This document shows, piece by piece, positions 17,169-20,109 of a DNA stretch of 64,000 nt; within the stretch, counting starts at the first letter, position 1, and each line of letters starts with the position of its first letter. Made by a program: the position numbers and the translations under genes. Below the pieces are notes generated by a model. It searched no databases. It was not told the DNA's origin and saw only the letters and a list, made by a program, of their open reading frames with translations. Source of the DNA: Blattabacterium sp. (Mastotermes darwiniensis) str. MADAR. GTDB taxonomy: Bacteria; Bacteroidota; Bacteroidia; Flavobacteriales; Blattabacteriaceae. The stretch is from positions 97,701 through 161,700 of the forward strand of contig NC_016146.1 in assembly GCF_000233435.1 (NCBI RefSeq). The letters run 5' to 3'.

Positions 17169-18191
17169 ATGTTAGATTTTCAAAAAAACTTCTCTCTAAG
17201 AAATTTTAATACATTTGGAATAAATGTTTATGCCCATTATTTTGTAAATGTGAAAAGTATAGGAGAGATACAAAAAACTTTTTGTAGATATCCTTATATT
17301 AAAAAATTTTTTTTGGGAAATGGAAGTAATATTCTTTTTTTAAAAAATTATTATCAAGGACTAGTAATAAAAATTGGGATAAAAGGGAAGAAAGTGATTA
17401 AGGAAACCAATTCTCAAGCAATTGTTCAAGCTTTTGCTGGAGAAAATTGGAATAAATTCGTAGGTTGGACTATAAAAAAAGGATTCATTGGTTTAGAGAA
17501 TTTATCCTTTATTCCTGGTACAGTTGGGGCTTCCCCAATTCAAAACATTGGAGCCTATGGAGTGGAAGTAAAGGATACTTTATTAGAAGTAAAAGTCTAT
17601 GAAACCGATAATGGAATAATAAAAAGTTTCACACGGGAAGAATGTAAACTGGAATATAGAAACTCTTTTTTTAAGCATCCACATTACAGAAATAAATTTA
17701 TTGTTTTATCTGTTACTTTCCTATTAGGTAAAAAAAATAAAAAGTTGAATACATCCTACATTGAAATTAGAAAGGAATTAGAAAACATGAATATCAAACA
17801 ACCTACTCCTTACGATTTAAGGAAGGCTATATTCAACATTAGAAAAAGAAAACTTCCAAAAAAAAAAATCGGAAATGCTGGTAGTTTTTTCATGAATCCT
17901 ATAGTAGGAATACTGTATTTAAAAAGATTACAATATAAACATCCAACTATTACTTATTGGAAAAATAAAAATAAAGTAAAATTATCTGCTAGTTCCTTGA
18001 TTGAAACAATAGGATGGAAAGGGAAAAAGATAGGGGATGTGGGGGTCTATGAAAAAAATCCTATAGTTTTAGTTAACTATGGAAAAGCTAGTGGGATGGA
18101 TGTCTATTCTTTTTCAAAAAAAATAAATAAAGAACTCAAAAAAAAATTGGGTATTGTTTTACCCATAGAAGTAAATATCATAAAATACTGA
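17169..18191 (+). CDS. murB: UDP-N-acetylenolpyruvoylglucosamine reductase
   Basis: A 340-residue FAD flavoenzyme that uses NADPH to reduce UDP-GlcNAc-enolpyruvate to UDP-MurNAc, the second committed step of peptidoglycan synthesis. Visible: 'SLRNFNTFGINVYAHYFVNV' at the start, 'FLGNGSNILFLKNYYQGLVI' (FAD pyrophosphate), 'LSFIPGTVGASPIQNIGAYG' near 110-130, 'ECKLEYRNSFFK' and the catalytic serine in 'GNAGSFFMNPI', with the C-terminal Glu in 'LPIEVNIIKY'. The length and the YRxSxFK-type loop fit type I MurB. It stands alone on its strand; a near-consensus -7 box (TGTCTTTG) lies about 30 bases upstream. Confidence 0.95.
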   Translation: MLDFQKNFSLRNFNTFGINVYAHYFVNVKSIGEIQKTFCRYPYIKKFFLGNGSNILFLKNYYQGLVIKIGIKGKKVIKETNSQAIVQAFAGENWNKFVGWTIKKGFIGLENLSFIPGTVGASPIQNIGAYGVEVKDTLLEVKVYETDNGIIKSFTREECKLEYRNSFFKHPHYRNKFIVLSVTFLLGKKNKKLNTSYIEIRKELENMNIKQPTPYDLRKAIFNIRKRKLPKKKIGNAGSFFMNPIVGILYLKRLQYKHPTITYWKNKNKVKLSASSLIETIGWKGKKIGDVGVYEKNPIVLVNYGKASGMDVYSFSKKINKELKKKLGIVLPIEVNIIKY

Positions 18192-18256: not shown

Positions 18257-19120
18257 ATGACTTTAGAGACTTTATTAGAAAAATCAAAAAAATACATACA
18301 AAAAAAAATAAAATACATCCCTGATTTTGGAATAATATTATTGGGATATCAGTTTAATGAACTAATCGAAGAAATAAAAAATCCTATAGATATTTCTTAC
18401 GAAGAAATCCCAGACTTAAAGGAAAAAAAAATCTATGTAAAATTTATTTTCGGAAAAATAGAAGAAAAAAAAGTAGTATTTTTTATCCCTTTGTATTCTT
18501 TCTATGAGGAAAATGGGAACAACCATTTTCCTATTCTTCTGTTTAAAAAAATGAGAGTGAATAAATTAATATTAATTAATATTTCTGGATCAGTGAATCC
18601 CAATTACAAAATTGGAGACATAATGTTGGTCAAAGACCATATCAATTTTTTTCCAGAAAGTTATGAAATGAAAAAAATATTAGAAAATAATAGGTTTTTT
18701 GGTATTACAGAAACATACGATCAAAAAATGCTGGAAATTGCAGAGAATATTGCGATGAATCATAATATCATTATACAGAAAGGGGTTTATGTCGCTTTTC
18801 CCTATCCAAATTATAAAACTACCGCAGAATATGCAATGATACGATCTATTGGAGGAGATAGTGTAGGAATGAATATCGTTCCATACGTAATCACAGCTAA
18901 ATGGATGAATTTACGAGTATTTTCCATATCTATCATGGTCGGATTAGGGGAAGAACAAGAACATAATAAAAAGGGGTCTTACAATTGGATGACCTCCTTT
19001 TTTCAAGAAACAGCAAACTCTATTCCTATTCTAATATTAATGGTCAAAGAATTTATAAAATATTATGATAATTTTTCTATTATATTTTTAGTTATTTTTT
19101 CAAAAATTTTTTTTATTTGA
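18257..19120 (+). CDS. Purine nucleoside phosphorylase relative with degenerate active site
   Basis: A 287-residue protein that aligns by eye with trimeric purine nucleoside phosphorylase (PNP): 'GIILLGYQFNELIEEI' (where PNP has the phosphate loop GSGLG), 'NPNYKIGDIMLVKDHINFF', 'GVYVAFPYPNYKTTAEYAMI' (where PNP has PGPxYET) and 'GGDSVGMNIVPYVITAKWM'. Four phosphate ligands of human PNP (Ser33, Arg84, His86, Ser220) are all replaced (around residues 29-33, L79, S81, N206), as is the purine-binding Asn243 (G229). Tyr83, Glu84 and Glu191 remain. The reading frame is intact and about normal length, but its C-terminal end runs 58 bases into the convergent mrp gene. It may be a relaxed enzyme, a new activity, or an early pseudogene. 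Confidence 0.75.
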   Translation: MTLETLLEKSKKYIQKKIKYIPDFGIILLGYQFNELIEEIKNPIDISYEEIPDLKEKKIYVKFIFGKIEEKKVVFFIPLYSFYEENGNNHFPILLFKKMRVNKLILINISGSVNPNYKIGDIMLVKDHINFFPESYEMKKILENNRFFGITETYDQKMLEIAENIAMNHNIIIQKGVYVAFPYPNYKTTAEYAMIRSIGGDSVGMNIVPYVITAKWMNLRVFSISIMVGLGEEQEHNKKGSYNWMTSFFQETANSIPILILMVKEFIKYYDNFSIIFLVIFSKIFFI

Positions 19121-20109
19121 TCATTTTTTAAAACTACGGGAATCCCTAAATCAGAATATTCTCGTATTTCTTGTAACAGAGGGATCTCTCCAAGAAAAAA
19201 AATATTCATTTCATTGGCAAAATTTTTAACTCCATTTTTTCCAAATAAATAATATTTCTTTTTTGTTTCCTTCTCCTTCGTAAGAAGGAAAGACATATTT
19301 TCTATGATCCCAAGTATTGGAACCTTTATGGATGGAATACGAAACATTCCCACAGATCTATGGACATCTGATAAAGCAATTTTTTGAGGTGTACTAACAA
19401 TAACAATCCCTTTTAATGAAATTTCTTGCAGAATAGATAAATGTATATCCCCTGTTCCTGGAGGTAAATCTACAATTAAAAAATCTAATAAACCCCAATT
19501 GGTTTCATGAATCAATTGTCTTAAAGCCTTAGTAGCCATTGGTCCCCTCCAAACAATGGCCTCCCCATATTTAGAAAAAAAACCTAATGATAGAATTTTA
19601 ACCCCATAACTAGTTATAGGATTCATTCCATACAAACCCTTATTTTTTTTAATAATACAGGAATGTACCTTTTCTTCTTCTAGGTTAAACATTAATGGAA
19701 TAGAAGGACCATAAATATCAGCATCTAATAAACCAACATGAAAACCCATTTTCATTAAAGAAACCGATATATTGGTGGATATCGTAGATTTTCCAACTCC
19801 TCCTTTTCCCGAAGCTACAGCTATTATATTTTTTATTCCAGGTATTTTTCTCTCAGTATCTTTATCTTCTAATTGAATTTCTATTTTTATACGTATTTTT
19901 TTGGTATCTATATTTTGATATTTTATACTTTTGTAGATATCTTTTTCTAATTTTTTTTTGATATGCATTGTAGGATTGTATAAACTTATATATATTCTTA
20001 TTTCATCCTTAAATACATCTATTTTTTTTACTATTCCAGATTCAATAATATTTTTTTTATTTTCAATAATAAAAACATTTTCTAATGCTTTCTCAATTTT
20101 TTGTTTCAT
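19063..20109 (-). CDS. mrp: Fe-S cluster carrier ATPase, Mrp/ApbC (NBP35 family)
   Basis: A 348-residue P-loop ATPase that holds and delivers Fe-S clusters. The N-terminal MIP18-like domain covers about residues 1-85; the deviant Walker A 'SGKGGVGKSTISTNI' is near 100-114, then 'VGLLDADIYGPSIPLMF', 'MNPITSYGVKILSLGF', 'WRGPMATKALRQL' and 'LDFLIVDLPPGTGDIHLSI' (Walker B). The CxxC motif of proteobacterial Mrp after 'IIENMSF' is absent; I recall the same in other Bacteroidota, so it is not necessarily damage. The 3' end overlaps the convergent phosphorylase-like gene by 58 bases. Confidence 0.92.
   Translation of the reverse strand: MKQKIEKALENVFIIENKKNIIESGIVKKIDVFKDEIRIYISLYNPTMHIKKKLEKDIYKSIKYQNIDTKKIRIKIEIQLEDKDTERKIPGIKNIIAVASGKGGVGKSTISTNISVSLMKMGFHVGLLDADIYGPSIPLMFNLEEEKVHSCIIKKNKGLYGMNPITSYGVKILSLGFFSKYGEAIVWRGPMATKALRQLIHETNWGLLDFLIVDLPPGTGDIHLSILQEISLKGIVIVSTPQKIALSDVHRSVGMFRIPSIKVPILGIIENMSFLLTKEKETKKKYYLFGKNGVKNFANEMNIFFLGEIPLLQEIREYSDLGIPVVLKNDQIKKIFEKITKNIIEKLS

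Follow-up and report, generated by a model that had tools for sequence, protein, structure and literature searches.

Does the purine nucleoside phosphorylase (PNP)-like gene lying next to murB in Blattabacterium, which lives as a symbiont in cockroaches and a few termites, still encode a phosphorylase, or does it now serve another purpose? The question is raised by an open reading frame in a 64,000-nucleotide stretch of the genome of Blattabacterium sp. (Mastotermes darwiniensis) str. MADAR, hereafter the window. A preliminary description had reported that the frame is intact and that its phosphate ligands are replaced, and had proposed either a slowly decaying gene or a new role. The frame is indeed intact (Table 1). 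It begins 65 bases after murB, on the same strand, and its 3' end overlaps that of the convergent mrp by 58 bases, because the window copy lacks the stop codon seen near residue 268 in most sister species. The MADAR genome consists of a 587,248-bp chromosome and a small second contig.

Table 1. Features of the PNP-like gene and its neighbours. Positions are those of the window; aa, residues of the 287-residue protein.
Feature	Position	Strand	Basis
murB	17169..18191	+	same-strand upstream neighbour; order kept in all 41 carriers
PNP-family putative pseudoenzyme ORF, 287 aa	18257..19120	+	frame, PF01048 match, alignment; sole PF01048 gene of the genome
Phosphate loop: GYQFN (aa 30-34) in place of GSGLG	18344..18358	+	alignment; Gln32 and Phe33 nearly fixed in genus
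Loop with His64 (STVEGH), 3 residues shorter, around aa 59-61	18431..18439	+	alignment
Leu-Tyr-Ser (aa 79-81) in place of the RFH motif	18491..18499	+	alignment; shortened in most sister species
Asp-His-Ile-Asn (aa 127-130), kept and genus-invariant; Asn130 = interface Asn137	18635..18646	+	alignment; PMC9916683
Most constrained stretch, aa 154-205, AENIAMNHNIIIQKGVYVAxPYxNYKTxAE	18716..18871	+	omega; newly constrained relative to flavobacterial PNPs
Y183-P-N-Y-K187: Tyr for Gly197, Lys for catalytic Glu201	18803..18817	+	alignment, site rates
Glu191 = human Glu205 (trimer interface)	18827..18829	+	alignment; PMC9916683
Asn206 in place of phosphate ligand Ser220	18872..18874	+	alignment
Base-binding loop lacking Thr242-Asn243 (aa 227-229)	18935..18943	+	alignment
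C-terminal extension, about 19 codons, over the mrp 3' end	19063..19120	+	most sister copies end near aa 268
mrp/apbC	19063..20109	-	convergent downstream neighbour, conserved in carriers

The protein matched the Pfam family PF01048 (PNP_UDP_1) with an E-value of 2e-24 (86.7 bits for a cut-off of 25.1), as did all 16 genus copies sampled, and no second PF01048 protein was found in the MADAR genome. Its best NCBIfam match was PRK08202 purine-nucleoside phosphorylase (NF006054), at 168.4 bits and thus under the cut-off of 218. The TIGR01700 score was also too low (153.7 for a cut-off of 293.35), and none of the eight Blattabacterium copies tested reached a curated PNP cut-off. Membership of the MTAP family (TIGR01694) failed as well, with 47.2 bits for a cut-off of 274.85. 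Sequence and profile searches both identified trimeric PNPs as the nearest solved relatives, the first being that of Bacteroides fragilis. The best explanation is that the gene descends from a flavobacterial PNP.

Active-site residues were compared in an alignment of 41 genus copies, human PNP and 31 PNPs taken as references, of which 30 come from the order and one from Gastranaerophilales. The human sequence served as a ruler and provides the numbering of reference residues; its key residues, verified position by position, agree with alignments to solved PNPs. In the window copy, the phosphate ligand Ser33 is replaced by Tyr31, His64 is deleted (this column is gapped in all Blattabacterium copies), Arg84 and His86 are Leu79 and Ser81, and Ser220 is Asn206. 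The last three replacements had been correctly named in the preliminary description. Replacement of the phosphate loop had also been recognized, with a register one residue off (LGYQF, 29-33, instead of the segment given in Table 1).

The base and ribose sites are altered as well. Catalytic Glu201 (PSFETVAE in human PNP) corresponds to Lys187 (YPNYKTTAE in the window), the ribose ligand His257 is Met245, Ala116 is Ile109, and Thr242-Asn243 are deleted. Position 243 is Asn in human PNP and Asp in flavobacteria. The loss of a base-binding Asn had thus been rightly noticed; its assignment to Gly229 holds only if the loop is aligned without a gap, as Val-Gly, a reading which likewise leaves no Asn or Asp. 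Glu191 had been taken for a surviving mark of the active site. It aligns to Glu205, not to Glu201, and Glu205 belongs with Asn137 and Asn199 to the subunit interface of calf PNP (PMC9916683). More of the active site is therefore lost than had been claimed.

An ordinary PNP whose ligands sit at shifted positions could in principle be mistaken for a dead one, since the sequence is divergent and AT-rich and several loops have changed length. However, comparing the 41 orthologs with the 31 PNPs revealed no conserved substitute His, Arg, Glu or Asn/Asp in the altered loops, a profile search against solved PNPs yielded the same register, and the genus copies tested score below the curated PNP cut-off, as described above. 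We regard such a misalignment as barely credible. With these ligands absent, phosphorolysis by the protein appears very unlikely, in agreement with the preliminary description.

The loss of ligands had been described for MADAR; it proved to be common to all 41 gene-carrying genomes. When eight canonical ligands were scored, 27 of the 41 Blattabacterium copies kept none and the other 14 kept a single one (Ser at 33), versus eight out of eight in 28 of the 31 reference PNPs and seven in the remaining three. At the phosphate site (Ser33, His64, Arg84, His86 and Ser220), the last four ligands are missing from every copy, as are Glu201, Asn243 (or Asp) and His257 at the base/ribose site. Some of the replacements are nearly fixed. 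Among 40 copies counted, Gly197 has become Tyr in all and Glu201 has become Lys in 38, Gln32 is present in 37, and position 206, the site of Ser220, is occupied by Asn (32), Asp (7) or His (1). The equivalents of Asn137 and Glu205 (Asn130 and Glu191) are invariant in the same 40 copies. Of the other trimer-interface columns, Asn is the commonest residue at 199 and Phe159 is retained in 35 copies; the Met87, Tyr91 and Arg148 positions have changed. The residues kept suggest that the trimer contact may be retained.

A genus profile run against 295 genomes of the class detected no similar dead PNP outside Blattabacterium. The best outside hit had an E-value of 2.5e-63 (4e-133 for the window copy). 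No intermediate was found, as the nine best outside hits carry canonical motifs. G064 (300 kb), which alone represented the rest of the family in the sample, has no PNP. Most simply, the ligands would have been lost before the genus radiated.

Selection on the gene was analyzed with a codon model on 25 genomes. The omega value of 0.152 is close to those of the neighbouring mrp (0.129) and murB (0.140), and constraining omega to 1 worsened the fit by 428.7 lnL. Residues 158-207 gave an omega of 0.051, equal to the lowest stretch of Mrp, and ten close pairs ranged from 0.07 to 0.20. No internal stop was present in any of the 41 copies, the frames being open over the homologous length; according to a rough estimate, hundreds of nonsense hits would be expected under neutrality. 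The gene is thus under purifying selection in the genus and is not decaying. The window copy itself could be drifting, because its terminal branch is about 2.3 times longer than its neighbours' average, it departs from the genus at five otherwise near-invariant positions (K21I, G61V, E78P, G100R and I262M), and it reads through at the C-terminus. For a triple including this copy, omega was 0.14.

The gene was detected in 41 of 49 Blattabacterium genomes, in every case between murB and mrp. On a murB+mrp tree, its absence from the other eight corresponds to three independent losses: one in G006 and G014, one in G030, and one in the clade formed by G010, G040, G011, G023 and G015. Most deletions are clean: in six of the eight genomes the murB and mrp matches lie about 20 to 60 bases apart (226 in G030 and 623 in G015), and tblastn found no remnant of the gene in the genomes lacking it. 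In G015, the smallest genome, the slot contains about 600 very AT-rich non-coding bases (L109, about 1133-1737). Chromosomes without the gene do not exceed 586,065 bp, and the smallest carrier has 586,140 bp. Losses are confined to the smallest genomes, so the function seems to be useful yet dispensable in the most reduced ones.

These three clean losses in small genomes, the accelerated window copy and the relaxed active-site columns described below are what would be expected if the gene were a relic, a decaying pseudogene left open by chance. But the genus-wide omega, the lack of internal stops, the rejection of omega = 1 and a stable new pattern of constraint all argue against it. For the genus as a whole we reject a pseudogene, which is highly improbable as an explanation of the locus. 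Of the two fates first proposed, selection and shifted constraint thus favour the new role over decay.

Other absences partly coincide with that of the PNP-like gene. An HDIG-domain protein (about 676 residues; G000:C1:31538-33337, L156) was not found in G002, G006, G010, G011, G014, G015, G030, G039 and G040, nor was diadenylate cyclase (PF02457) found in G006, G010, G014, G015 and G040. c-di-AMP signalling may thus have been lost in the smallest genomes. Co-loss with these proteins was considered as a hint to function and discarded, the overlap being imperfect and explained by general reduction.

A structural model was calculated with AF2 from an input alignment of six sequences (the window copy, four other Blattabacterium copies and one PNP). 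It reached a pLDDT of 71.7 and a pTM of 0.76. Confidence is low chiefly in the altered loops; weak loops (pLDDT below 50) surround the pocket, at residues 82-88, 130-137, 144-151 and 231-243. The PDB matches listed by Foldseek were all PNPs, the first being B. fragilis PNP (8swt, E-value 1.1e-20, TM 0.78). According to the model, the PNP fold is kept.

To describe where constraint now lies, per-site rates were estimated separately for flavobacterial PNPs and Blattabacterium copies over 256 columns. Within each set the rates were reproducible, with Spearman correlations of 0.77 between halves of the PNPs and 0.68 between halves of the Blattabacterium copies. Between the two sets the correlation was 0.03 (-0.03 to 0.05 for halves). 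With the same treatment, mrp, the only between-clade rate control, still gave 0.52 between sets; therefore, AT bias or fast symbiont evolution alone is insufficient to account for the difference. The mean rate rose from 0.24 to 1.15 in the former active-site columns and fell from 1.61 to 0.42 in those corresponding to human residues 163-191, neither shift being reached in 10,000 random draws. The new constraint covers residues 150-200 approximately and, in the old pocket, Tyr183 and Lys187. Within the former cleft, four residues have become fixed anew (Gln32, Phe33, Tyr183 and Lys187), and position 206 is held by Asn or Asp.

Altogether, we consider it likely that in this ancient endosymbiont, which discards genes it cannot use, the only PNP became a neofunctionalised pseudoenzyme specific to this lineage, with a new conserved surface, a rebuilt pocket and a new function in most species. 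With somewhat less assurance, we favour a repurposed pseudoenzyme in which the fold would be kept, phosphorolysis lost, and a new surface for binding or for a partner acquired.

The rebuilt pocket might instead belong to a new enzyme catalyzing another reaction around Gln32, Tyr183, Lys187 and Asn/Asp206, for example on an acidic ligand given the change of Glu201 to Lys. The near fixation of these polar residues and the very low omega of residues 158-207 would fit this proposal. Against it, some of the highest rates fall in other pocket columns (the Arg84, Gly118 and His257 sites), loops 82-91 and 242-259 have become shorter and differ in length between copies, and at residue 78, where 39 of 40 copies have Glu, the window has Pro. 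We hold a new enzyme to be the less likely solution, though one deserving attention, and our preference goes to a scaffold or partner surface over a new catalytic site.

A nucleoside-binding protein (a sensor or buffer) using the original pocket, the example of a new role suggested at first, is still less probable. It would accommodate the kept fold, the mostly retained Ser117 and Gly118, and Tyr88, which is present in 24 of 40 copies. However, the base ligands Glu201 and Asn243 are gone from all 41 copies (Lys and a deletion, respectively, in the window), Ala116 is Ile in most of them, and the ribose ligand His257 is lost.

The metabolic context may explain why phosphorolysis would have been lost. 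A PF00156 search of the MADAR genome found no base-salvage phosphoribosyltransferase of the hpt/apt type; the matches, named by reading the sequences, were PRPP synthetase, purF and pyrE only. Free purine bases released by a PNP would therefore not be salvageable by that route, which would explain how phosphorolysis could be given up. In iCG238, a published metabolic model of another Blattabacterium strain, the gene BLBBGE_377, which annotation names purine-nucleoside phosphorylase, was given seven reactions (EC 2.4.2.1). All seven are blocked, and pending further data the authors left the gene out (PMC3819652). BLBBGE_377 is taken to be the ortholog of the gene studied here, since each carrier showed one copy of this kind, in the syntenic position. 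No earlier description of the gene as inactive was found in the literature searched.

We therefore propose, as a scenario, that base salvage probably became useless first in the stem lineage of Blattabacterium, and that the PNP was then stripped of all its phosphate, base and ribose ligands. The fold would have been retained during this loss, and the protein then repurposed, with purifying selection maintaining it in most species of the genus. The present protein would still be a PNP-like trimer, given the invariant Asn137 and Glu205 and the mostly kept Phe159. It would not carry out phosphorolysis; its most likely mode of action would be binding or scaffolding, by way of a predicted surface made of the helix and strand at residues 156-180 approximately and the remodelled pocket at Gln32, Tyr183, Lys187 and Asn206. 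In the most reduced genomes, this role would have become dispensable and the gene been deleted.

Compared with trimeric PNPs (PunA/PNP I, TIGR01700, NF006054; B. fragilis 8swt), the protein shares full-length homology, the predicted fold, Asn137/Glu205 and the DHIN motif; it differs by its replaced or deleted ligands, its scores below family cut-offs and an unrelated map of constraint. Prozyme-type dead paralogs, which activate an active partner, are similar in that a dead homolog is kept by selection, but MADAR has no second PF01048 protein to activate. The vegetative and bark storage proteins of Populus, related to the Blattabacterium protein at the level of the superfamily, are nucleoside-phosphorylase-like proteins used outside nucleoside salvage (PMC3751785). 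The plant proteins store nitrogen, whereas the strong site-specific constraint on the Blattabacterium protein suggests a binding surface and not bulk storage.

What remains in a reduced endosymbiont genome is generally taken for leftovers of ancestral functions. Here, a gene named as an enzyme by annotation is very probably not that enzyme, yet it is conserved, and a new function seems to have emerged as the genome shrank. Pseudoenzymes are already a known kind of protein; what would be particular to this one is its repurposing during endosymbiotic genome reduction. This is also the likely answer to the published puzzle of a PNP gene without a role in the Blattabacterium metabolic model (PMC3819652). 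Moreover, the 41 sequences form a well-sampled natural series in which to follow constraint as it leaves an active site for another surface.

Some other genes showed features of their own. In MADAR, pyrE and pyrF (orotate phosphoribosyltransferase and OMP decarboxylase) form one fused frame of 464 residues (L155, 559-1953, minus strand). In G008, murB (L102, 2983-3561, minus strand) has only a 192-residue open frame matching query residues 1-189, and looks truncated or frameshifted. In G003, a single mrp frame (L030, 763-1527, plus strand; 254 residues) matches residues 92-347 only, and the 5' part of the gene may be broken.
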